41,252 nucleotides of DNA from contig JAJBBD010000239.1 in assembly GCA_020532355.1 (NCBI GenBank), forward strand, positions 1 through 41,252, given 5' to 3'. Positions within the stretch are counted from its first letter, which is position 1. Each line of letters opens with the position of its first letter. The position numbers were made by a program, and so were the translations under genes. Under the pieces are notes generated by a model. It did not search any database and was not told the origin of the DNA. It saw only the letters and a list, made by a program, of their open reading frames with translations. Origin of the DNA: Candidatus Cloacimonadota bacterium (GTDB lineage: Bacteria > Cloacimonadota > Cloacimonadia > Cloacimonadales > Cloacimonadaceae). This document shows, piece after piece, positions 1 through 21,102 of the stretch.

Positions 1-1749
1 GGGTGCTTCCTCTTTGCAGGCAAAAAAGTAGCTTTGGTGGGTGGTGCGATAGCTGCCGATCAAGCTTTAACCATAGCCCAGGCAGGAGCTGCTCACGTGG
101 AAATGATTACATTGGAAACCTTTGCAGAGATGCCGCTAACAGAGCGAGAAAAAGAGATACTAGTAGAAAACGGTGTACTTTTTAGTCATCGGAGTCGCAT
201 TGCCGAGATTGTGAATGAAGGCGAACGTACAGTGGGGATTAAGCTACGCAGAGTGGTTTTACCACAAGGCGAAAGCTTCCACCCCTCTCGCATCAAAGAT
301 GAAGATGGTTCTACCGATCAATTCCGCAACTTCGACTTGGTAATTATCGCCGTAGGCAACCGTCCAGCATTCAAGATTGAAGGCGAAGGCATCTACAGTA
401 CAGGCGATATGGTGAATGGACCCAGCACAGTGGTGGAAGCAGTTGCTTCCGGCAAAAACACAGCTTTCAAGCTTGATGCCGATTTGCGTAAGATCAACAC
501 TTATCGCAAACCAGAAAAGACAACCAAGAGTACAAACAGAGTACCGGGTTGGAATAGACTGCCAGTATCTTTACACACAGACTTCTTCGGGCGTAAGCTG
601 CGCTCGCCCTTCATCCTCTCTGCTGCGCCACCATCAGACGGTTACGAGCAGATGAAAACCGCTTATGAAGCAGGGTGGGCAGGGGGAATTATGAAGACCA
701 GTTTCGACAATCTGGATATTCATATCCCCAGTGAATATATGTTTGTTTGGGGCGATAAGGGCAAAACCTTCGCCAATTGTGACAATGTGTCTGAACACCC
801 TATCGACAGAGTTTGTGCAGAAGTAGCCCGCCTCATCAAAGAATACCCTGATCGCCTTACTATGGCATCCACCGGTGGTCCCGTCACGGGAGATGACACC
901 AGTGACAAAGTGGGCTGGCAATCAAACACCAAAAAGCTGGAAGCAGCAGGTGCCATGGGTATCGAATATTCTCTTTCTTGCCCTCAGGGTGGAGATGGCA
1001 CAAATGGCGACATCGTAGCACAAGATCCTGCCCTTACAGCCAAAATTATCGATTGGGTGATGCAGATTTCCGATCCTGAGATTCCTAAATTGTTCAAACT
1101 AACCGGAGCCGTAACTGCCATTTATCCAATTATCAGTGCCGTAAAAGAGGTTTTTGATCGCTATCCGAATAAAAAAGCAGGCGTGACTCTTGCCAATACA
1201 TTCCCTACTTTGGGCTTTCGGCAAGCAGAGGGCAAATGGGATAAAGGCATCATTGTAGGCATGAGTGGTGAAGGCGTATTACCCATCAGCTATCTCAGCC
1301 TCGCTCGTGCCGGTAGTATGGGAGTATTCATTTCTGGAAATGGCGGTGCTATGAACCATCATGATGCAGCTAATTTCCTCGCCTTAGGAGCGGGAAACGT
1401 ACAGTTTTGCACTCTGCCAGAACGTTATGGTTACGGCATAATTGATGAATTGGAGAGCGGATTGAGTCACTTGCTGCAAGAGCGCGGCATAAATAGCGTG
1501 AGCGAACTTATTGGAATTGCCCAGCCTCATCCGGTTACGGACTTTATGGATTTGAAGCCCAAACATAAACGCAGTTCCCTTATCAAAGATCTATGCGTAA
1601 AGTGTGGTAATTGTACCCGCTGTCCATATTTGGCAATAGAACTGGATAGTGAAGGATACCCAAGCATAGATGAGGATAAGTGCATGGGTTGTAGCCTGTG
1701 TGTTCAATTATGCTGGACAAACGCACTGGAAATGGTAGAAAGAAAATAA
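1..1749 (+). CDS. GltD/PreA-type fusion: dihydropyrimidine dehydrogenase-like flavin/Fe-S oxidoreductase (5' end outside window)
   Basis: The reading frame is open from base 1, so the start lies upstream. The visible first 150 residues or so are the C-terminal half of a GltD-like pyridine nucleotide oxidoreductase: a GKKVALVGG nucleotide-binding turn and a closing STGDMVNGPSTVVEAVASG segment. A PreA/dihydroorotate dehydrogenase-type FMN barrel follows (SPFILSAAPPSDGYEQ, YSLSCPQGGDG, GNGGAMNHHDAANF). The C-terminus is a two-cluster ferredoxin: CVKCGNCTRCP, then CMGCSLCVQLC. This order matches dihydropyrimidine dehydrogenase, which moves electrons from NAD(P)H through FAD and Fe-S to FMN and the substrate. 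However, at the position where DPD has its catalytic cysteine (before the GQDP motif) this protein has valine (codon 1015-1017, IVAQDP). Pyrimidine reduction is therefore doubtful and the substrate is unknown. It converges on the transhydrogenase operon. The family call is firm, the function is not. Confidence 0.85.
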   Translation, partial: GCFLFAGKKVALVGGAIAADQALTIAQAGAAHVEMITLETFAEMPLTEREKEILVENGVLFSHRSRIAEIVNEGERTVGIKLRRVVLPQGESFHPSRIKDEDGSTDQFRNFDLVIIAVGNRPAFKIEGEGIYSTGDMVNGPSTVVEAVASGKNTAFKLDADLRKINTYRKPEKTTKSTNRVPGWNRLPVSLHTDFFGRKLRSPFILSAAPPSDGYEQMKTAYEAGWAGGIMKTSFDNLDIHIPSEYMFVWGDKGKTFANCDNVSEHPIDRVCAEVARLIKEYPDRLTMASTGGPVTGDDTSDKVGWQSNTKKLEAAGAMGIEYSLSCPQGGDGTNGDIVAQDPALTAKIIDWVMQISDPEIPKLFKLTGAVTAIYPIISAVKEVFDRYPNKKAGVTLANTFPTLGFRQAEGKWDKGIIVGMSGEGVLPISYLSLARAGSMGVFISGNGGAMNHHDAANFLALGAGNVQFCTLPERYGYGIIDELESGLSHLLQERGINSVSELIGIAQPHPVTDFMDLKPKHKRSSLIKDLCVKCGNCTRCPYLAIELDSEGYPSIDEDKCMGCSLCVQLCWTNALEMVERK

Positions 1750-1812: not shown

Positions 1813-4800
1813 CTAGAAGCTAACGGAGTTGTTCCGAATACTGTAGAGACGGTTTATCTCTATTGCTGAACAGCTATTTGAGGGTACAATCGCAGTATTC
1901 AGAGAAGCCGTATCGATCCCGCCAAAGCTCTGTGGTTTATGATGCTGGAGCTCTGCAATTAGTTCTTCTGCGAGGTTGTTCCAATATGGAATATCCGCCG
2001 TTGCAGGAGAAATGAGTCCCACGCTGTAAAACAGACGGGAGAGCTCGCCAAACAGGGTGGATTTTAGCGGATTATGAAAGCGGGAAAGCTTTCCATTATC
2101 CCCAATAGCATGAGCTTCCAATTCTAGATAGTTGGGTCCAGGAAGGATTAGTGGACAGTCACAATCCTCAGGGATATTTGTAGATACACAAACTCTAAAT
2201 CTTGCTTTCGCAGAGGGTGCAACACCGAAACCGATGGCAAAATCACACTCTTCTTCATTAACCACTTCCGGATTTAGCGCCACAAAAGCGCTGTGATTCA
2301 TATAATCCGTAGTATGCATTACATTTTCTGTTCCGGCAAGATTCCATAAGGCTCCGGCAAGCTTCTCAGAAATTCGGTTCTGATTGTAGATATACAGACG
2401 GCCATCTTTGGCTTGCATATTGCTAAGATCGGGATAGCTTTCATCGGCAAAGCGTGTGTAGGCTTCGTCTTCGGGCATCGCTACCAAGATCAGCTTTTTG
2501 CCTTTCATCTGCTCAAGACGAATTATGCTAAGCAAAGTGCGGTTAAGCACTCCCACTATCACATATTCATTAAATTCTGTAAGGCGCAGGAAGGGGTTTT
2601 CCTTTGGACTGATATCCAGATACTGGTCACTAAAAGCCCTATAACCGGAAGCAGCACTTAGCTCACAATTTAGTGACTTTGCGATTCTATCAGCTACCAG
2701 CATTTCTTCAAGGCTGATGTGCGGGCTGATCTCGACACTTTTACTTTGGGCTGATTTCAGTGCAGTACTAAACACATTCAACGCCTCGCTCCAGCTAATT
2801 TGCAGATATTCACCATTCTTAAGCATCAGAGGCTTTTGCTGCTTGTGGTTATAGCTTTGCCATCCAAAGCGTCCCATAAAGCAAAGGTTTTTCCCATTGA
2901 AACCGGGCTTATCTTGAGGAGTGGTAATTTGTACCACTTCACTGGCTTGTACCCCCACTGAGATGTCGCAGCCAATGCCACATAAACCACAGTTTTGGCG
3001 GACACTGTCCTTTTGTGCGGGATTTAGCTTGTAACTCAGATTGCGTTCTACCAAGGCTCCTACCGGGCATACATCAATGCATTTGCCACAGCTCATGCAG
3101 CTCGTTTGAGTGAGAGATTCTCCAAACTCCGGTGCCATCACAGTAGCGAAACCCCTGTAAATAAAGCCCAATACGTTTGCTCCCTGAACCTCAGCACAAG
3201 TGCGGATGCAGCGTGCACAATTGATGCATTTATTGGCGTCGCGAACGATGAAAGGATGGCTGTAATCTATGGGATGGCGGGAGATATTGCCAACAAAGCG
3301 ATCTACCTCAACCTCGTATTCCGAGCAGTAATTCCTCAGAGCGCAATTTGTGTTCACCTGACAACCACATTCTAGGCACCGTGATGCTTCGGCTCGAGCT
3401 TGTGCTTCGCTAAATCCTTTTTCTACCTCGGTGAAAGTGTTTCTCGCTTCTACTATAGATATCTCCGGCATAATTTCGCGTGGAATTTGCTTAAATACTT
3501 CGTATTCTTTGGCTGAGACTTCGCTTATTTTCTTTGCTTTCTTGGAATTGAATTCAAACTTGGCTTTGGGCAGTGTACCTTTTATCAGATATTCAGCGAT
3601 AGCTTCGGCAGCTTTACGACCATCTGCGATAGCTTCGATTGCAGTAGCAGCGCCGCGCTGAAAATCGCCTCCGGCAAAGATATTGGCAATTCCGCTATAC
3701 ATGGTGTGTTCATCCACAATAGCGGTCTGCCAGCGCGAAATGGGAAGTTGTTTTCCTTGCACTTCGTTGTGCGGCATGGTAAAAGCGCTTACATCCGGTA
3801 CTTGTGAGATGGCGGCAATAATGCTATCAAAGCTTTTCATAAAGAACTCTCCGGTTGGTTCCGGTCTTCTTCTGCCGCTTGTATCGGGCTCACCCAAGCG
3901 CATTCTTTCGATTTTTACTTCTTTAAGAGTGCCATTTTCGCCCAGATACTCCACCGGATTGCATAAGAAATAGAATTGTACGCCTTCGTGTTCGGCAGCT
4001 TCGATCTCGAAAGGCTCGGCGGGCATTTCATCCTTTGTGCGGCGGTAGATTACAGTAACATCGCATCCCAGTCGAATTGCAGTTCTAGCACAATCTATAG
4101 CTGTATTGCCACCGCCCACGACCGCGAGCTTTTTGCCTGTTTTGTAAGCTTTGCCTTTGGCATGGGCTTTCAGAAAATCCACGCCTAGATAGCACCCTTC
4201 TAGATTGCTGCCCGGTACAGGCATAGGTACGGCGTTTTGAGCGCCTAAAGCCAGATAAACTGCATCGTAGTCACGGCTAAGGCTTTGCAAATCAAGGTCT
4301 TTACCTAGAGTCCTACCATAATGAATCTTCATTCCTCCACTGGACATCAGGGCAATTTCTTCATCCAATACTTTCTTAGGCAGGCGATATTCCGGTATTC
4401 CATAGCGCAACCAGCCTCCGCAAGTTTCTTCTGCTTCGAAGAGATCCACATTGAAGCCTTCATAGCTAAGATAGTAACCGCAGGTGAGTCCACTGGGACC
4501 TCCGCCGATTATTGCCACGAGTTTCCCATTATCGGGTTTACGTTCTGGAGTATATTGCCAAAAGTCTTTTAAGTCTTCATCAGCAGCGAAGCGTTTTAGT
4601 TGACGGATGGCAATTGGTTCATCCACTATACTGCGACGACATTCAGTTTCGCAAAATGCTGGGCACACTCTGCCAATTGAGAGGGGCATAGGTAGCGTAT
4701 CTTTTATTATTTTTACTGCTTCATGGTATTTGCCATTAGCGATAAGCGAAACGTAGGTTTGGATGTCCACATGGTTTGGACAGGCCATTTTACAGGGTGC

Positions 4801-5103
4801 CTCACAATCCGCATAGTGGTTGCTAATCAAGAGTTCCAATGCCATCTTGCGCGCAGCATGGATCTCTTTGCTATTGGTAGTAATCTGCATGCCGGGAGTA
4901 ATTTTAGTTCCGCATGAAGTTACAAATCCCTTTCTACCTTCCACTTTTACGGCGCAAACCCAACATGAGCCGTAGGGTTTTAGTTCCTCATCATGACACA
5001 GGGTAGGGATGTGGATGCCTTCGCTTTTGGCGAGTTCCAAAATTGTTATTCCTTCAGGGGCTTCAATTGATTTTCCGTTCAATATTACTTGCATCTGTCT
5101 CAT
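1813..5103 (-). CDS. StnC-like subunit: 2Fe-2S / GltD-like FAD-NAD(P) / ferredoxin / NuoG-like fusion, 1096 aa
   Basis: Domains in order: NuoG-type [2Fe-2S] ferredoxin (C36, C47, C50, C64); GltD-like Fe-S segment (C100, C104, C108, C147, C151, C155); FAD fold (GGGPSG near 200) and NAD(P) fold (VVGGGNTAIDCA near 328-339), continuing to about residue 500; a cysteine patch at 576-593; two [4Fe-4S] ferredoxin motifs (C626/629/632/636 and C669/672/675/679); and the Fe-S motif of molybdopterin oxidoreductases (NCGLCGIGC, C705/708/712, C741). The last 350 residues resemble a shortened, degenerate molybdopterin domain, as in NuoG. With the two upstream genes this matches the Stn-type NADH/NADPH/ferredoxin transhydrogenase plan: the GltD part would handle NADPH and the NuoE/NuoF pair NADH. 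The start overlaps the NuoF-like stop by 4 bases. A second ATG at 5094 is better spaced from AGGAAAGG. Domain calls are direct; the reaction is inferred. Confidence 0.85.
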   Translation of the reverse strand: MRQMQVILNGKSIEAPEGITILELAKSEGIHIPTLCHDEELKPYGSCWVCAVKVEGRKGFVTSCGTKITPGMQITTNSKEIHAARKMALELLISNHYADCEAPCKMACPNHVDIQTYVSLIANGKYHEAVKIIKDTLPMPLSIGRVCPAFCETECRRSIVDEPIAIRQLKRFAADEDLKDFWQYTPERKPDNGKLVAIIGGGPSGLTCGYYLSYEGFNVDLFEAEETCGGWLRYGIPEYRLPKKVLDEEIALMSSGGMKIHYGRTLGKDLDLQSLSRDYDAVYLALGAQNAVPMPVPGSNLEGCYLGVDFLKAHAKGKAYKTGKKLAVVGGGNTAIDCARTAIRLGCDVTVIYRRTKDEMPAEPFEIEAAEHEGVQFYFLCNPVEYLGENGTLKEVKIERMRLGEPDTSGRRRPEPTGEFFMKSFDSIIAAISQVPDVSAFTMPHNEVQGKQLPISRWQTAIVDEHTMYSGIANIFAGGDFQRGAATAIEAIADGRKAAEAIAEYLIKGTLPKAKFEFNSKKAKKISEVSAKEYEVFKQIPREIMPEISIVEARNTFTEVEKGFSEAQARAEASRCLECGCQVNTNCALRNYCSEYEVEVDRFVGNISRHPIDYSHPFIVRDANKCINCARCIRTCAEVQGANVLGFIYRGFATVMAPEFGESLTQTSCMSCGKCIDVCPVGALVERNLSYKLNPAQKDSVRQNCGLCGIGCDISVGVQASEVVQITTPQDKPGFNGKNLCFMGRFGWQSYNHKQQKPLMLKNGEYLQISWSEALNVFSTALKSAQSKSVEISPHISLEEMLVADRIAKSLNCELSAASGYRAFSDQYLDISPKENPFLRLTEFNEYVIVGVLNRTLLSIIRLEQMKGKKLILVAMPEDEAYTRFADESYPDLSNMQAKDGRLYIYNQNRISEKLAGALWNLAGTENVMHTTDYMNHSAFVALNPEVVNEEECDFAIGFGVAPSAKARFRVCVSTNIPEDCDCPLILPGPNYLELEAHAIGDNGKLSRFHNPLKSTLFGELSRLFYSVGLISPATADIPYWNNLAEELIAELQHHKPQSFGGIDTASLNTAIVPSNSCSAIEINRLYSIRNNSVSF

Positions 5104-6866
5104 CCTTTCCTGATCGCATTAAATTTGCAGGCATTAAAACAAGCTCCGCAGTGGATACATTTGCTTTGATCGATAACATGTACTTGTTTTACTTTTCCAG
5201 AAATACAAGATACCGGGCATTTACGGGCGCAAGCGGTGCAACCTATACATTTATCGGGGATTATCTCGTAGCGCAGAAGTTCGGTACAAACTCCAGCAGG
5301 ACAGCGTTTCTCTTCGATGTGTGCCAAGTATTCATCTTTAAAGTAGCGCAAAGTTGTCAGCACAGGATTTGGGGCGGTTTGTCCCAAACCACAGAGTGAA
5401 CCCTTAATGATATTTGAAGAGAGTTCTTCCAAGCGCTGGATATCTTCAGGTTCGCCTTTGCCTTTGGTAATGCGGGTTAAAATCTCCAGCATGCGTTTGG
5501 TTCCGATGCGGCAGAAGGTGCATTTACCACAGGATTCATTTTGCGTAAAGTTCAAAAAGAAGCGTGCCACATCTACCATGCAAGTACCTTCATCCATAAC
5601 CACCATACCGCCGGAGCCCATGATGGCACCAGTAGCGTTGATGGAGTCGTAATCCACAGTAGTGTCCAGCAGCGAAGCAGGTATGCAACCACCCGAAGGA
5701 CCTCCCATCTGCACGGCTTTAAAAGGCTTCTCTGTTTTCATGCCCCCACCTACTTTGTAAATGATATCGTGCAGTGTGATCCCCATTGGTACTTCTATCA
5801 GGCCGCTTCCGGCAATCTTTCCGGCAAGGGCAAACACTTTAGTACCAGGAGTTTTTTGGGTACCAATCTTACGAAATTCTTCCGCTCCATGATTGATTAT
5901 CCAAGTAATATTCGCCCAAGTTTCCACATTATTGATATTGGTAGGGCAGCCCCACAAGCCACTTTCTGCGGGGAAAGGAGGGCGAATAGTAGGCATACCG
6001 CGCTTACCTTCGATAGATTGCATCAAGGCGGTTTCTTCTCCACAAACAAATGCTCCAGCGCCTTCTTTAATATGCAAATCAAAGCTAAATCCGGTATCCA
6101 TGATATTTCTACCCAAATAGCCTTTTTGTTCGGCGGCTTCAATGGCAATTTTTAGATGACGAATTGCCATGGGATACTCAGCGCGGCAATAGATATAACC
6201 TTCATCTGCTCCCATGGCAAAAGCACCTATAATCATGCCTTCGATCACATTATGCGGATCTCCTTCCAAAATGCTGCGATCCATAAATGCTCCTGGATCA
6301 CCTTCATCAGCATTGCAAACCACGTATTTTTTGGCACCTTTAGCTTTGGCGGCAAAGCTCCATTTCAATCCGGTAGAAAATCCTGCACCACCTCGGCCGC
6401 GCAGCCCTGAATCTTTTACCAAATCAATTATCTGCAATGGTTGCATTTCTAATGCTTTTGTTAGGGCAGTATAGCCTCCGTGTTCGATATAATCGTCGAT
6501 GGATGTGGGATCGATAACTCCACAATTGCGCAATACAATGCGCGTTTGCCCTTCCAGCAAGCCGTTTCGCGTCCCATCATGGTTGTCGGCAAGGATTATA
6601 TTGGTTTGAGGCAATTCACCCTTTTGGTATGCCTCTAAGAATTCTATCACCTTGCTTGCATCAACCTTGCCCAAGCTAAGTGTGCCCTGCTTTCCTCCGC
6701 TTAGTTCCACGATGGGCTCTTCAAAACACATCCCAATGCAGGCTGTGCGTTTTAGTTCAAAATGTTTTCCAGCAGCTTTATATTGTTGCAATACATTATA
6801 AACTTCCATCGCACCCGCAGCTATGCCGCAGCTTGCCATGCCCACTTTTACGGTAATATTGCTCAT
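5100..6866 (-). CDS. NuoF/HydB-like NADH-binding flavoprotein with C-terminal ferredoxin domain (StnB-like)
   Basis: 588 aa. An N-terminal thioredoxin-like ferredoxin domain (about 1-90) has only three visible cysteines in the usual area (C13, C43, C47). The NuoF core carries the FMN loop RGRGGAGFSTGLKW (156-169), the NADH-binding stretch GAGAFVCGEETALMQSIEGK (269-288) and the N3-type [4Fe-4S] motif ESCGKCTFC (C446, C449, C452) with C492. The C-terminus holds two [4Fe-4S] motifs (C540/543/546/550 and C570/573/576/580). This is the architecture of HydB of bifurcating hydrogenases and of StnB, longer than NuoF of complex I. It should oxidise or reduce NAD(H) and pass electrons to the GltD-NuoG subunit, in the cytosol. 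It overlaps both neighbours by 4 bases (ATGA), which points to translational coupling. No [FeFe]-hydrogenase subunit is present nearby. Confidence 0.9.
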   Translation of the reverse strand: MSNITVKVGMASCGIAAGAMEVYNVLQQYKAAGKHFELKRTACIGMCFEEPIVELSGGKQGTLSLGKVDASKVIEFLEAYQKGELPQTNIILADNHDGTRNGLLEGQTRIVLRNCGVIDPTSIDDYIEHGGYTALTKALEMQPLQIIDLVKDSGLRGRGGAGFSTGLKWSFAAKAKGAKKYVVCNADEGDPGAFMDRSILEGDPHNVIEGMIIGAFAMGADEGYIYCRAEYPMAIRHLKIAIEAAEQKGYLGRNIMDTGFSFDLHIKEGAGAFVCGEETALMQSIEGKRGMPTIRPPFPAESGLWGCPTNINNVETWANITWIINHGAEEFRKIGTQKTPGTKVFALAGKIAGSGLIEVPMGITLHDIIYKVGGGMKTEKPFKAVQMGGPSGGCIPASLLDTTVDYDSINATGAIMGSGGMVVMDEGTCMVDVARFFLNFTQNESCGKCTFCRIGTKRMLEILTRITKGKGEPEDIQRLEELSSNIIKGSLCGLGQTAPNPVLTTLRYFKDEYLAHIEEKRCPAGVCTELLRYEIIPDKCIGCTACARKCPVSCISGKVKQVHVIDQSKCIHCGACFNACKFNAIRKG

Positions 6867-7339
6867 TTTTCCTCCTCAAAAGCATATCGTTCGAGGATGG
6901 GAGGGATTGCCTCAGGGCTTAGTTTGCCATATGTAGTATCGTCTATCATTATCACTGGCGCCAGCGAGCAGCAACCCAAGCAGGCTACTTCCATTAAAGT
7001 GAAGTTCATATCTTTGGTTGTACTTTCGTCATCTTCAAGTTTTAGAGCTTGGACTAAAGCTTCTTTGATGCCATCTGCATCGGAAACGTGACACGCCGTG
7101 CCCTTGCATACGCGAATAATGTGTTTACCTTGCGGTTCTAGCTTAAACATCGAATAGAATGTAGCGACGCCATATATATCAGCAGCGGGGATGCCGGTTT
7201 CTTTGGCAATATATCGCATTGTGTCTTTGTTCAGATGTCCCAGCAAAGCTTGGATTTCCTGAAGAAGCGGAATTAGAATACCCGGTTTTCCCCGATACTT
7301 CCCGATGATTGAGTCTAACTGAGAAAAATCTTTATCCAT
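6863..7339 (-). CDS. NuoE/HydC-like [2Fe-2S] subunit (StnA-like)
   Basis: 158 aa, the usual length for NuoE. A helical N-terminus is followed by the thioredoxin-like ferredoxin fold. The four ligands are C78 and C83 (VCKGTAC) and C120 and C124 (VACLGCC). YGVATFYSMF is the typical NuoE segment. I chose the ATG at 7339 because AAAGGAAG lies just upstream on the minus strand; the in-frame GTG at 7378 has no good ribosome site. It is first of a three-gene operon and overlaps the NuoF-like gene by 4 bases. The NuoE/NuoF pair forms the NADH-oxidising, and in HydABC/Stn complexes the bifurcating, core. This could be HydC of a hydrogenase whose HydA lies elsewhere, but the GltD-bearing third subunit favours a transhydrogenase. 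Confidence 0.9.
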   Translation of the reverse strand: MDKDFSQLDSIIGKYRGKPGILIPLLQEIQALLGHLNKDTMRYIAKETGIPAADIYGVATFYSMFKLEPQGKHIIRVCKGTACHVSDADGIKEALVQALKLEDDESTTKDMNFTLMEVACLGCCSLAPVIMIDDTTYGKLSPEAIPPILERYAFEEEK

Positions 7340-7601
7340 CGCACTTCCTTTGATATTAGCTTTTGGTATAATATACACCCAGTCTTCGGATGATAAATAT
7401 TACCAATGATGGCAATAAATCTTGAGCTATCCAATCTTGTCAAATAAAAAACGAGATATCCTGAGCTTAGTCTGCAGGTTTTGCTTTTTGCTGGATTTCA
7501 TGTTGATAGAGTGGGTTATCTTGATTGCTATAGCTTAGAGGTTCTAGGGAGTTGAGAAGAATAGCACCTTGTACAGGGAATTCCGATTATCCGGAAGTAT
7601 G

Positions 7602-7615
7602 CATATTGCAATATG
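7602..7615. promoter_or_regulatory. Perfect 14-base palindrome, possible operator
   Basis: CATATTGCAATATG is its own reverse complement. It lies about 260 bases upstream of the NuoE-like start and 470 upstream of the ABC gene, and directly follows an imperfect TTCCG/CGGAA inverted repeat. It could be a dimeric regulator site. No regulator gene is adjacent, so the role is a guess. Confidence 0.3.
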
Positions 7616-7664
7616 AGGCAAATCCAAAATTGTGTTTCTAAAATTATACCGCATTATAAGCTTC

Positions 7665-7756
7665 ATGCTTCAAGCAAGTATGCAGGAAGGTTAAAGCTAA
7701 TATTATGCATAATTTGCGGGATAATCTCCGCTTAAAGCATAGTTATGTTATGCTTG
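7665..7756 (-). repeat. Dispersed intergenic repeat, copy 1
   Basis: Read on the minus strand, a 35-base segment starting GCATAAC and ending GGAGATTATCC matches copy 2 (25241-25338) at 30 of 35 positions without gaps. A weaker, gapped second half contains AGCTT.AA..TT.CT.GCATACTTG, which aligns with copies 2 and 3. On the plus strand, 7716-7731 (GCGGGATAATCTCCGC) is a near-palindrome that could form a hairpin core. It lies wholly in non-coding DNA. Confidence 0.6.
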
Positions 7757-8005
7757 AGGTACAGACTTGGTAATCATTATGAAGTATCCAATCTCAAAAG
7801 ATAGAAAAGTGATATCTTAATAGCGTCACATTACCCTCTAACAGATTGTCGTTCTGGAGCTTGAAGATTGGATTAAGGGCTATTTTGTGGTGTTAGCACA
7901 AGTCTTATCTTTTTTATATCTATTGGTCGCAACCAGCCTATTTTTCTCATTTGAATATCTTGCCAAGCCAATCTGTAGATAGAAGTGACTATAAATAGCA
8001 ACAAT

Positions 8006-8028
8006 GCTGCAAAAAGGCAGCTTTTTTT
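8006..8028 (+). terminator. Terminator-like hairpin with T run, no gene upstream on this strand
   Basis: GCTGC pairs with GCAGC across AAAAAG and is followed by seven Ts. The stem is short (5 pairs) but the shape is that of an intrinsic terminator. No plus-strand gene lies between 1749 and here, so it may end an unrecognised small transcript, or be chance. Confidence 0.45.
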
Positions 8029-8029
8029 A

Positions 8030-8067
8030 TTGACACAATGTGTACGATACTTGTTATGGATTATATA
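8030..8067 (+). promoter_or_regulatory. Possible promoter of the ABC transporter operon
   Basis: TTGACA at 8030-8035 is a perfect -35 box. At standard spacing the -10 would be the poor GTTATG (8053-8058); the better TATATA (8062-8067) is 26 bases away. It lies directly after the hairpin at 8006-8028 and 18 or more bases before the ATG at 8086. Confidence 0.35.
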
Positions 8068-8085
8068 GGTGGAAAAGTATAGACA

Positions 8086-8766
8086 ATGGAAATCATCAAA
8101 ACCAACTCTCTGATTAAAGATTACGATCTTGGCAAGGTTAAGGTACGTGCTTTGAATGGTATAGATATCAATATCAAAGCGGGTGAATTTGTGGCGATAA
8201 TGGGTCCCTCAGGTTCTGGTAAAAGCACTTTGATGCATATAATCGGATGCTTAGACCGTCCCAGCGGGGGGGAATATTATCTGGATTCGGATTTGGTAAG
8301 CCAGTTGCCAAAATCTGCTCTGGCGGGAATTCGTAACCGCAAGATAGGATTTGTGTTTCAATCTTTCAATTTGTTACCACATCTAAGCATCGTAAAAAAC
8401 GTTGAACTACCGTTGATGTATAGCGGGATGTCGGGACGCTTACGCCGGGAGAAAGCTAAGAGCATACTTGCCGGAGTTGGTCTCTCAGACCGCTTTAAGC
8501 ACAAACCGAATGAGCTTTCAGGGGGGCAGAGGCAGCGAGTAGCCATAGCTCGTGCCATTGTGAACGATCCCTCAATACTTTTAGCAGATGAGCCCACGGG
8601 CAATTTGGATTCTCAATCTGGAGGGGATATTTTAGAGATTTTCAGCAAATTGCACGAAGCAGGGAATACGGTGATTATTGTAACTCACGATCCTGCAGTG
8701 GCAAGCAGGACAGATCGAATTATCAAGATAAAAGATGGAAAGGTGGATTATGGCGATCTCGCTTAG
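8086..8766 (+). CDS. ABC transporter ATP-binding protein, MacB/LolD type
   Basis: 226 aa, one nucleotide-binding domain. Walker [10 protein letters not shown] (about 40-48), Q-loop [12 protein letters not shown], signature LSGGQRQR, Walker [13 protein letters not shown] and switch histidine VTHD are all intact. The DEPTGNLDS string and the overall length are typical of the MacB/LolD/FtsE group, which power permeases with a large periplasmic domain. The next gene is such a permease and overlaps it by 17 bases, so the two form one transporter. The ribosome site (GGTGG about 15 bases upstream) is weak. Substrate unknown: a macrolide, peptide or lipoprotein role cannot be told apart from sequence. 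Confidence 0.92.
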
Positions 8767-9982
8767 CGAATCTTTCCACATAGGGATATCCGATATCATG
8801 ATGCGTAAAGTGCGCAGCCTTGTAACTATTTTGGGAATTGTTCTGGGCGTAATGTGCATCATGGTGGTTTTGGCGATCATCAGTGGAATGAACGAAACTA
8901 CGCTAAGCTGGATGGAAGAACGCGGGGGAGTTGGAAAAATCGAGATATTTCGCAATTGGGATTATGATTTTAGCAAGGGTGGATATGCATCTTTGAGTAT
9001 AACGGAGTTTAACCGACTGCGGGATTTGGTGCCCGAAGCAAAAGCGATTAATTCTACCGTACAGATGTGGGATTCTCGATTAAAACATGGAGGACTAACT
9101 TATACCGGTGTATGTATGGGCATTTTACCGGATTTCACGATAGCAGAAAACTGGAATGTGGATAGCGGCAGATTCATCAATCAAATAGATGTACGCGAAA
9201 ACAGTAACGTAGTAGTATTGGGTTCTTCTGTGGCACGGGATCTCTTTAAGGGGGCAGATCCAATTGGGGAAAGTATAAGCATAGCTAATAACACGATGCA
9301 AGTGATTGGAGTAATGCAGGAAAAAAAGTGGGAAGGTGAAGGGGGAGGCATGTGGTCGGGCAATGCTTTGGAATATCTAAATCAGCAGAGCTTTATTCCT
9401 ATTTCTACTTCAATAAGTAAATTCGGTTCGGAAAACATGATATCCAGCATCCAAGTACTGGCTCATACTCCAGAACAAGCTTTGCAATTACAGAAAAAAC
9501 TCAAGTTGATTCTGCTTAATATAAAGCGTGGTAAGGAAGTTTTTAGGGTGCGCTCTGCTCAGGAAGAATTATTGCAGATGCAACAGAACTCTCGGATATT
9601 TAGCATGGTGTTTACGATGATTGCTTCAATTTCACTATTGGTAGGGGGCATTGTGATAATGAACATTATGCTGGCATCCATAAAAGAACGAACCCGAGAG
9701 ATTGGCGTACGCATAGCCGTAGGAGCGCGCAGATTGGACATCTTTCTCCAGTTTTTGGTGCAAACCGTATTAATTACGGCGTTTGGCGGAGTATTGGGAG
9801 TTGTATTGGGTTTCACAATTTTAGACTTGGTGAGCGGATTTCTTGAGATGCCAATGAAAGCAGATCCGGGCATGATAATAACTGCGCTAATTGTATCTGT
9901 GGGAGTGGGTTTGGTATTTGGAATTGTCCCAGCTATTAAAGCCGGGAATCTGGATCCGGTAATAGCATTGAGGGAGGAATAA
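8750..9982 (+). CDS. ABC transporter permease, MacB/FtsX family
   Basis: 410 aa from the ATG at 8750, chosen because GGAAAGG sits 6 bases upstream; an in-frame ATG at 8735 lacks a site. One transmembrane helix near the N-terminus (LVTILGIVLGVMCIMVVLAI) is followed by a MacB-type periplasmic domain of about 220 residues, then three C-terminal helices (MVFTMIASISLLVGGIVIMN; the VQTVLITAFGGVLGVVLGF region; the IITALIVSVGVGLVFGIVP region). The cytoplasmic loop KERTREIGVRIAVGARRLDI and the ending AIKAGNLDPVIALREE are hallmarks of MacB/LolC-type permeases. It pairs with the ATPase upstream. No HlyD-like periplasmic adaptor or TolC-like gene is in the window, so whether it exports to the outside or acts within the envelope is open. 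Confidence 0.9.
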   Translation: MAISLSESFHIGISDIMMRKVRSLVTILGIVLGVMCIMVVLAIISGMNETTLSWMEERGGVGKIEIFRNWDYDFSKGGYASLSITEFNRLRDLVPEAKAINSTVQMWDSRLKHGGLTYTGVCMGILPDFTIAENWNVDSGRFINQIDVRENSNVVVLGSSVARDLFKGADPIGESISIANNTMQVIGVMQEKKWEGEGGGMWSGNALEYLNQQSFIPISTSISKFGSENMISSIQVLAHTPEQALQLQKKLKLILLNIKRGKEVFRVRSAQEELLQMQQNSRIFSMVFTMIASISLLVGGIVIMNIMLASIKERTREIGVRIAVGARRLDIFLQFLVQTVLITAFGGVLGVVLGFTILDLVSGFLEMPMKADPGMIITALIVSVGVGLVFGIVPAIKAGNLDPVIALREE

Positions 9983-19372: not shown

Positions 19373-20671
19373 TTAGGATTGCAGCTCGGGATACAGAGGG
19401 AACTTGGCGGTAAGGTTTCTTACCTCTGTTTTAATTTTTGCAAGCTCATCCTCATTTTGGTAATTATCTCGCACTTTAGCAATGAGAGAGGCAATAATCT
19501 TCATTTCGGCAATGCCCATTCCTCTGGTTGTGACTGAAGGGGTACCTAAACGGATTCCTGAGGCTACGAAAGGACTGCGTGTGTCGAAAGGAACCGTGTT
19601 TTTGTTGGCGGTAATGCCAGCTATATCCAAGGCTTCTTCCATCTTTTTCCCGCTGGGTCCTCCCTTTTCTTCTGGGCCCAGATCTATTAGCATCAAGTGA
19701 GTGTCTGTTCCTCCCGATACGAGATCAAATCCCTCAGCGATTAACGCATCAGCAAGAGCGTGAGCGTTATCTACCACTTTTTTCATGTAGGTTTTAAACT
19801 CTGGCTGTAAGGCTTCACCAAAAGCTACTGCTTTAGCTGCAATGGCGTGCATCAATGGTCCACCTTGAATACCGGGGAATACTTTGCCATCTATCTCTTT
19901 GGCATATTCCTCTTTGCACAGAATTAATCCCCCGCGTGGACCACGTAAGGTTTTATGCGTGGTGGAGGTAACAACATCAGCGTAGGGAACTGGGTTTTCG
20001 TGCAGTCCAACCGCAACTAATCCGGCAATGTGTGCCATATCTACCATGAACTTTGCGCCGACTATATCGGCAATTCTCCGAAATTGAGCAAAATCAATCT
20101 TACGCGGGTAAGCAGATGCGCCCGTGAGAATCATTTGCGGCTTGTGTTCTTTTGCCAAACGCTCGATTTCGGCATAATCGAATTGTTGAGTATCTTTGCC
20201 AACCATGTAATGTATTACATTATAAAGCTGCCCGCTAAACGAAAGAGGGTGTCCGTGCGTGAGGTGTCCACCATGGGCAAGCTCAAGGGCAAGAACGGTA
20301 TCCCCCGGCTTAACTAGGGCAAAATAAGCAGCCATATTGGCTTGAGATCCACTATGGGGTTGCACATTTGCGTGTTCTGCTCCAAAGAGTTTTTTAGCGC
20401 GCTCGATGGCAAGTTGCTCTGCCTGATCTATGAATTCGCATCCGCCATAATAGCGTCCGTAAAGATTGTAGTTTACTTTGCCTGTTTTCTTACTCCAGCG
20501 GTAGGGGTAACCTTCGGCATATTTATTGGTGAGGACGCTGCCCTGAGCTTCCATCACTGCCAAAGAAGTAAAGTTCTCACTTGCAATAAGCTCCAGGTTG
20601 TCCTGTTGCCTGCTTAGCTCTTGTGAGATTGCAGCAAAAACTTCGGGGTCTTGTTTTTGGATGTTTTTCAC
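19373..20671 (-). CDS. glyA: Serine hydroxymethyltransferase, with a 14-residue insertion
   Basis: 432 aa. It converts serine and tetrahydrofolate to glycine and 5,10-methylene-THF in the cytosol, using PLP. The family motifs are intact: [38 protein letters not shown] and the PLP lysine K240 in [13 protein letters not shown]. Between YAEGYP (51-56) and RYYGGCE (73-79) most bacterial enzymes have two residues (GK in E. coli); here residues 57-72 (YRWSKK...NLYG) form a 16-residue stretch. This segment lies near the active site in known structures, so the insertion may alter cofactor or subunit contacts. Last gene of the six-gene operon; its start overlaps rpiB by 4 bases. Confidence 0.97.
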
Positions 20672-21102
20672 TTCCGTTCTCCTTGATGTATTTTATTGAT
20701 TCTATTCAAATGTCTGCCCCCATCGAAGGGAGTTTCCAACCATGTTTTTACAATATCCACAGCATAATGAGTAGCAGTGAATCTGCCAGCTAATACCAGA
20801 ACATTGGCATTATTATGCATGCGTGAAAGCCTTGCTACATCTGTAATGTTACAAAGGGCAGCCCTGATTCCTGGAACTTTGTTGGCAGTAATACTCATTC
20901 CAATTCCACTTCCGCAGATAAGTATGCCAAATTCGCATTCACCTTCCGCTACTGCTTGGGCAGCAGGAAATCCAGTATCGGGGTAGTCAATACTTTCTTC
21001 GTTATTGGTGCCAAAATCCAAAAACTCATGTTCCGGGAAAGAGCGGATAATGAATTCTTTTAATGTATATCCAGCATGATCGCTTGCTATGGCTAGCCTC
21101 AT
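20668..21102 (-). CDS. rpiB: Ribose-5-phosphate isomerase B
   Basis: 144 aa from the ATG at 21102, which follows GGAGGTAAG and gives the normal RpiB length; the longer frame adds 12 unlikely residues. Motifs: [12 protein letters not shown] (phosphate and substrate binding), [20 protein letters not shown] with the catalytic cysteine, and [12 protein letters not shown]. It interconverts ribulose-5-P and ribose-5-P, or allose phosphates. It overlaps the upstream acyltransferase and downstream glyA by 4 bases each, so the three are translationally coupled. rpiB next to glyA is a common arrangement in bacteria. Confidence 0.95.

Follow-up and report, generated by a model that had tools for sequence, protein, structure and literature searches.

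A DPD-type GltD-PreA fusion of Cloacimonadota as a candidate yanthine reductase of reductive uric-acid degradation

The locus and the full-length protein

The window, as we call the whole stretch of 41,252 nucleotides analysed here, is the entire contig C239 of a Candidatus Cloacimonadota genome of 2.69 Mb in 339 contigs. It opens with the larger part of a fusion between a GltD-like module and a PreA-type domain, which is followed by a second GltD-containing gene (Table 1). Contig C267 ends with the same 123 bases with which the window begins, and the frames join across them to a fusion protein of 813 residues. Uncut relatives have 809–860 residues, apart from L057 with its over-extended start (1135 residues). 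The nearest named relatives in a scan of species genomes are Cloacimonadota MAGs at 87% identity.

Table 1 Features of the fusion gene and its neighbour (positions in the window unless a contig is named)
Feature	Position	Strand	Remarks
GltD-PreA fusion enzyme, C-terminal 582 residues	1..1749	+	open frame, incomplete at the left edge of the window
N-terminal 231 residues of the fusion	contig C267:2325-3017		same genome; exact 123-base overlap with the window start
C-terminal part of the GltD-like module	1..495	+	Rossmann NAD(P) site and closing FAD motif
NAD(P)-site motif GGAIAAD	40-60	+	one residue shorter than the GGGNTAMD type
MITLE after beta-2	103-117	+	GltD-like module; without Arg-Arg
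Closing FAD motif GDMVNG	403-420	+	GltD-like module
PreA/DHOD-type FMN domain	559..1521	+	PF01180 29 bits; PreA model 208 bits (under cut-off); best match of the L035 model is pig DPD
Active-site loop SCPQGGDGTxGDIVxQ	976..1023	+	nearly invariant in the fusion family, unlike DPD/PreA
Cys327 (TGC)	979..981	+	equivalent of DPD catalytic Cys671; Cys in 45/45 relatives with a residue there
Val339 (GTA)	1015..1017	+	aligns with pig Cys684 and with Val of E. coli PreA
First C-terminal 4Fe-4S motif CVKCGNCTRC	1594..1623	+	one residue shorter than in PreA; 44/44 relatives
Second C-terminal 4Fe-4S motif CMGCSLCVQLC	1681..1713	+	sequence motif
GltD-containing neighbour	1813-5103	-	tail to tail with the fusion; NfnABC/StnABC-type bifurcating complex

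The domain order of dihydropyrimidine dehydrogenase (DPD), claimed in the first-pass annotation, is borne out by profile matches: within the open frame of the window a GltD-like module comes first, then a PreA/DHOD domain and finally two 4Fe-4S motifs. The N-terminal piece on C267 contributes Fer4_20 (DPD domain II) and the beginning of Pyr_redox_2 (Pfam). The protein of the close relative L035 matches Fer4_20, Pyr_redox_2, DHO_dh and 4Fe-4S dicluster models near their cut-offs; DHO_dh scores 23.9 bits there, below the cut-off of 27, and 29 bits in the window protein. The fusion thus has the DPD-type combination of GltD and DHOD modules flanked by 4Fe-4S motifs at the N- and the C-terminus.

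For residue counts, identical relatives were merged, which left 46 distinct sequences; L057 was kept despite its N-terminus. Two entries were removed before counting, namely L033, the true PreA of genome G036 (61% identical to E. coli PreA), and L061, a fragment from a Thorarchaeota-labelled contig. This fragment (L061:4064-4453) is 70% identical, and its short contig carries a coverage of 0.37 in the title; it is possibly a contamination. Upstream of the fusion, contig C267 (L003) holds at 372-1436 (+) a gene that resembles by eye a dTDP-glucose dehydratase and has an in-frame stop here, while its counterpart is a single 357-residue frame in L037, L039 and L041.

The tail-to-tail neighbour with a GltD module, also noted in the first pass, does exist. 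The pair recurs in genomes G005 and G007 and was not seen in the other close loci of the scan. The neighbour is one of three genes on the minus strand (1813-7378): a 1096-residue GltD/NuoG-like protein, a NuoF-like protein and a 171-residue protein that is NuoE-like by size and place only. The large subunit matches electron-bifurcating Nfn-ABC/StnABC transhydrogenases (695 bits to 9bov_A, 694 bits to 8oh5_C), and most genomes of the window's order are listed with an open frame of about 1,100 residues that has a GltD-type match.

Active site, clusters and predicted structure

It had been claimed that the fusion lacks the catalytic cysteine of DPD and carries a valine at this position. In a phmmer search against the PDB, SLSCPQG of the fusion pairs with NLSCPHG of pig DPD, whose cysteine is residue 671 as counted from the start of the printed alignment at Ser624. 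The chains with C671A (1h7x) and C671S (7m31) differ from the wild type at exactly this letter. The cysteine of SCPQ, which the same annotation had named as another candidate, is therefore the one at the catalytic site; the valine call was a misalignment, and loss of the catalytic cysteine is ruled out. The valine codon itself was read correctly, but its position is non-catalytic, with Val339 opposite pig Cys684 (LACGQDP) and the valine of E. coli PreA (SDVGQ). Of the 46 distinct relatives, 45 have residues at these two positions, and neither Cys327 nor Val339 varies among them. As judged by sequence alignment, on which this placing is based, the DPD-like catalytic cysteine is intact in the fusion. 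An SCP cysteine is also found in four PyrD-like proteins of the window's order.

Residues K232, N259, S326, C327, K366 and N399 of the fragment are kept and align with residues of DPD that we take to serve in the FMN site and the active site; the equivalents of Asn609, Asn736 and the aligned lysines of DPD are kept as well. At pig Asn668, presumably a pyrimidine-binding residue, Ser is found in 45/45 relatives, so this feature of DPD is absent, and Gln stands at the position of pig His673. Since the FMN-site and active-site residues and the nearly invariant catalytic loop are retained, the role of a pure electron-transfer module, proposed in the first pass, finds no support and was rejected.

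The reported shortening of the first C-terminal cluster holds: all 44 relatives reaching the motif have CxxCxxCxxC instead of the CxxCxxCxxxC of PreA, followed by P in 40 of them. At the N-terminus, eight cysteines of the L035 protein align with C79, C82, C87, C91, C126, C130, C136 and C140 of pig DPD, which we assume to include the cluster-binding ones, and Q93 aligns with Q156 as counted from the printed alignment. The NCBIfam equivalog model for PreA, with its cut-off of 335 bits, is missed by the window protein (208 bits) and by L035 (199 bits).

AlphaFold2 was run on 31 relatives; the first row was the protein of L035, which shares 87% identity with the fragment in the window. The model has a mean pLDDT of 85 and a pTM of 0.80, with low confidence in the loop after the cysteine (pLDDT below 50 at residues 561-568). 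In Foldseek, the first 39 rows are all pig DPD, the best with E 8e-54 and a TM score of 0.74 by query length, at an rmsd of 13 Å over the whole chain. VIA-align matches the model to 1gt8_C with Z 33.6 and an rmsd of 3.7 over 697 residues; on the GltD half alone, GltD chains of the NfnI type reach somewhat higher values (Z up to 36.8).

Comparison with known systems

With pig DPD (1gt8/1h7w), its best Foldseek match, the fusion shares the domain order, the FMN domain, the N-terminal cysteines and the equivalents of Cys671 and Gln156. It differs in its active-site loop, in Ser for Asn668, in the shorter first C-terminal cluster and in its purine-gene context, and the two are 22–27% identical in the structural alignment. 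The E. coli PreT-PreA system has the same modules, and PreA likewise has Val at the position of Val339 and SCPQ at the catalytic cysteine. PreT and PreA are, however, encoded by two genes, whereas the fusion is one gene with a DHOD domain of about 30% identity, a shorter first cluster and a missed PreA cut-off.

E. coli YgfK also unites GltD and DHOD-like modules in one chain, its gene lies beside ssnA, and YgfK and the fusion replace each other across genomes. Yet the 1032 residues of YgfK have the reverse module order, the DHOD part is not significantly similar (BLAST E 0.08), and HGCPP stands in the region corresponding to the SCP loop. The YgfK model TIGR03315 (cut-off 835 bits) gives 84 bits for the N-terminal piece from the window's own genome and 88–151 bits, in the GltD half only, for the other fusion genes listed. 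Orthology with YgfK is rejected by these far-below-cut-off scores and by the BLAST value. Clostridial UacX, a PydA homologue, was compared through its homologues L141 and L142. These lie beside ssnA and combine a DHOD-type domain with C-terminal ferredoxin motifs, but have 365-371 residues, without the FAD/GltD part and without the SCP cysteine loop.

In a tree of DHOD domains (24 rows; L150-L152, fetched as possible outgroups, were left out as not DHOD-like), the fusion forms a single clade (100/100) with a long stem; its neighbour is PreA (90/88), and it falls inside the PreA/DPD group (98/94). The AU test disfavours a grouping with UacX (p 0.036) and gives p 0.185 for a grouping with pig DPD; since the program warns of long branches, we take the tree as moderate evidence. 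Together with the fused GltD module, the separate lineage in this tree leads us to reject orthology with UacX. As UacX lacks the SCP cysteine and the loop of YgfK is different, a shared active-site chemistry is not readable from the sequences.

By the account of Li et al. (2025, PMC12507026), E. coli YgfK with NAD(P)H and SsnA turns 2,8-dioxopurine (yanthine) into ureidomethyl-hydantoin, and C. difficile UacX with reduced methyl viologen and SsnA gives the same conversion; YgfK, UacX or SsnA alone had no detectable activity. Because PF01180 serves as the mark of UacX in their network, it may include some fusion proteins under that name; the main text contains no word beginning with 'Cloacimon' or 'fusion'. 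A literature search over titles and the starts of abstracts, covering few subscription journals, returned nothing on this fusion or on reductive uric-acid degradation in Cloacimonadota.

Gene neighbourhood

The scan of species genomes returned 33 loci, of which 27 (L034-L060) hold close relatives of the fusion. Fifteen are labelled Cloacimonadota or Cloacimonetes; the other 12 include Ignavibacteriae, Elusimicrobia, Deltaproteobacteria, Opitutae and Bdellovibrio. An SsnA homologue directly adjoins the fusion in nine of these 12 (L045, L047, L048, L049, L050, L052, L053, L054 and L059), cut by the contig end in L049 and divergent in L052, and none lies directly beside it in L051, L055 and L057. 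Genes like ygeY and ygeW are also found in L045, L047, L048 and L053. SsnA and YgeY exceed their NCBIfam cut-offs in L045, where a PALP enzyme and a YgeW-like carbamoyltransferase stay under theirs; L048 has XdhA-, XdhC- and MocA-like proteins, all under cut-off.

No SsnA gene lies directly beside the fusion in the window or, as judged by clustering of the neighbouring proteins, in any of the 15 Cloacimonadota loci of the scan, several of which have short or cut flanks. Elsewhere in the window's order, the two genes are adjacent in G035, G045, G046 and G058 and about 4 kb apart in G027. In the phylum Elusimicrobiota they share a contig in 45 genomes, in 37 of them within 400 bases and in 35 of these on the same strand.

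The ssnA gene of the window's own genome is split over two contigs: on C51, the end of the contig interrupts SsnA (412 bits), and C283 starts with 38 residues matching the end of the relatives' SsnA (76% to L085 and L092). On C283 follow ygeY (546 bits), a threonine-synthase-like PALP enzyme and a dihydropyrimidinase-like protein under cut-off and, further on, xdhA-like and xdhC-like genes, ygeW (616 bits), a second PALP enzyme and a MobA-like protein. Here the fusion gene is not beside its proposed partners, so the link rests on co-occurrence and on the relatives.

Two PALP enzymes per cluster, one threonine-synthase-like and one of 481 residues, are seen at L093:1330-2523 and 7461-8906 and at L048:14374-15534 and 19427-20872. 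They occupy clusters where a YgeX of the E. coli type would be expected, and another enzyme may be in use for the diaminopropionate lyase step in these lineages.

Co-occurrence and mutual exclusion across genomes

Gene content was compared in 59 genomes of the window's order (fusion called at E below 1e-100, SsnA counted above 400 bits against a curated cut-off of 455.5 bits) and in 247 genomes from the phylum of an Elusimicrobiota MAG (fusion at E<=1e-60, SsnA at E<=1e-80, YgfK at E<=1e-150). In the order, the fusion is found in 29 genomes and SsnA in 31, which include all 29, giving 29/29 fusion genomes with SsnA against 2/30 others (Fisher 8e-15, ignoring shared ancestry). SsnA lies over the curated cut-off in 26 of the 59; the five of the 31 below it include the contig-cut copy of the window's genome. 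Weaker SsnA-like proteins (283-325 bits) occur in eight more genomes, all without the fusion. The XDH-type molybdenum hydroxylase family PF20256 is present in exactly 39 genomes, the 31 with SsnA and the eight with a weaker SsnA-like protein, and covers all fusion genomes. YgeY above 300 bits is found in 36 genomes, again including all 29; 35 copies exceed its cut-off, and that of G012 is cut.

The phylum set repeats this pattern. Fusion is found in 53, SsnA in 62 and both in 51 of the 247 genomes, hence SsnA in 51/53 fusion genomes against 11/194 others (Fisher 2e-39, which likewise ignores shared ancestry). The two fusion genomes without SsnA at E<=1e-80 are G488 and G503, and one of the 11 with SsnA but no fusion has YgfK. 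Over both sets, 80 of 82 fusion genomes carry SsnA. That some members of genera g1 and g5 have neither gene suggests repeated joint loss.

YgfK occurs in eight genomes of the order (seven over cut-off, one partial) and in one of the phylum set, in none of these nine together with the fusion. The PreA equivalog exceeds its cut-off in one of the 59 order genomes, G036, which has no fusion and carries YgfK beside ssnA. In G032 (L095), an ssnA-ygeY-xdhA-xdhC-ygeW cluster is present and neither fusion nor YgfK was found, which points to a gap in the assembly or to a further kind of reductase. G037 (L110, C1), also without the fusion, has xdhA-, xdhB- and xdhC-like genes beside one resembling UacX (42-44% to the homologues L141/L142 from clostridia), as well as an SsnA-like protein of 283 bits.

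A proposed role in uric-acid degradation

We propose, at a probability of about 0.82, that the fusion is a flavin/iron-sulphur yanthine reductase of DPD-type architecture, which would carry out the dearomatising step of reductive uric-acid degradation. A purine, 2,8-dioxopurine, is most likely its substrate rather than uracil, because the fusion family is tied to the genes for oxygen-free uric acid breakdown. The earlier suggestion of a different substrate was probably right, given Ser at the position of Asn668, the family-specific loop, the failed PreA cut-off and the linkage to SsnA and other uric-acid genes.

For substrate, electron donor and electron path we infer the following scheme. The soluble enzyme would comprise an N-terminal 4Fe-4S domain, FAD and NAD(P) domains, an FMN/DHOD domain and two C-terminal 4Fe-4S clusters. 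NAD(P)H, in the window's genus probably NADH, would reduce the FAD, and electrons would pass through the 4Fe-4S clusters to FMN. FMN would then give a hydride to yanthine and Cys327 a proton; the dihydro product would be opened by SsnA, with YgeY and YgeW acting downstream. NAD(P)H is the probable donor because the GltD module is kept. An Arg-Arg pair is typical of NADPH sites; the NAD(P) site of the window's genus is atypical and lacks it, as does that of E. coli PreT, for which NAD(+) dependence is annotated, and L053 keeps Arg-Arg. These sites hint at the cofactor preference. Several observations count against this role: the Cloacimonadota loci of the scan have no SsnA gene directly beside the fusion, two Elusimicrobiota fusion genomes show no SsnA at E<=1e-80, the NAD(P) site of the window's genus is atypical, the downstream lyase of these genomes is threonine-synthase-like with no clear match to YgeX, and HyuA is represented by a weak candidate.

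Could the fusion be a genuine DPD, reducing uracil or thymine, with its link to purine genes coincidental or a sign of joint nucleobase salvage? The same domain order, the retained catalytic Cys, Lys and several Asn, and the grouping of the DHOD domain with PreA/DPD would all fit. We nevertheless consider it very unlikely in view of the invariant Ser, the Gln at His673, the different loop, the score far below the PreA cut-off and the presence of SsnA in nearly every fusion genome of the two sets.

Just as improbable is that the fusion feeds electrons to, or catalyses, another step of the pathway, for example as the partner of an XdhA/XdhC-type hydroxylase that has no adjacent FAD subunit in the ssnA cluster and would turn uric acid into yanthine. 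Molybdenum hydroxylase genes do adjoin the fusion in seven of 18 typed loci (L045, L088, L089, L091, L098, L099 and L100), and in the window's genome no xdhB adjoins the xdhA-xdhC pair that lies near ygeY (L093). In six of the seven, however, the hydroxylase has a FAD-subunit-like gene of its own, L099 being cut by the contig end; moreover, the FMN active site is kept, and such a role would leave no YgfK for dearomatisation. The poorest candidate is the reduction of another heterocycle that SsnA-type amidohydrolases then open: the fusion in L055 adjoins an amidohydrolase with just 23% identity to E. coli SsnA, with a closer SsnA elsewhere in the genome, but YgeY passes its cut-off both in L045 and in the genome of the window, and YgeW passes in the latter, though it falls short in L045.

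Implications

The best reading of these data is that the yanthine reductase proposed here stands, as a third architecture, where E. coli has YgfK and clostridia have UacX. A more far-reaching view holds that it is a third lineage of the DHOD superfamily, recruited for yanthine independently of YgfK and UacX, and that single-chain enzymes of DPD architecture may have acted in the anaerobic degradation of purines earlier than, or in parallel with, that of pyrimidines. Such an early purine role comes into consideration because the AU test does not reject a grouping of the fusion with animal DPD, but we regard this view as unlikely.

For the family, the annotation as PreA or DPD is a likely misannotation, which is corrected here. 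In Cloacimonadota, Elusimicrobiota and their relatives, where YgfK is found in 8/59 and 1/247 genomes, the fusion is a candidate for the dearomatising step of reductive uric-acid degradation, and it suggests that three distinct protein lineages serve one newly described reaction.
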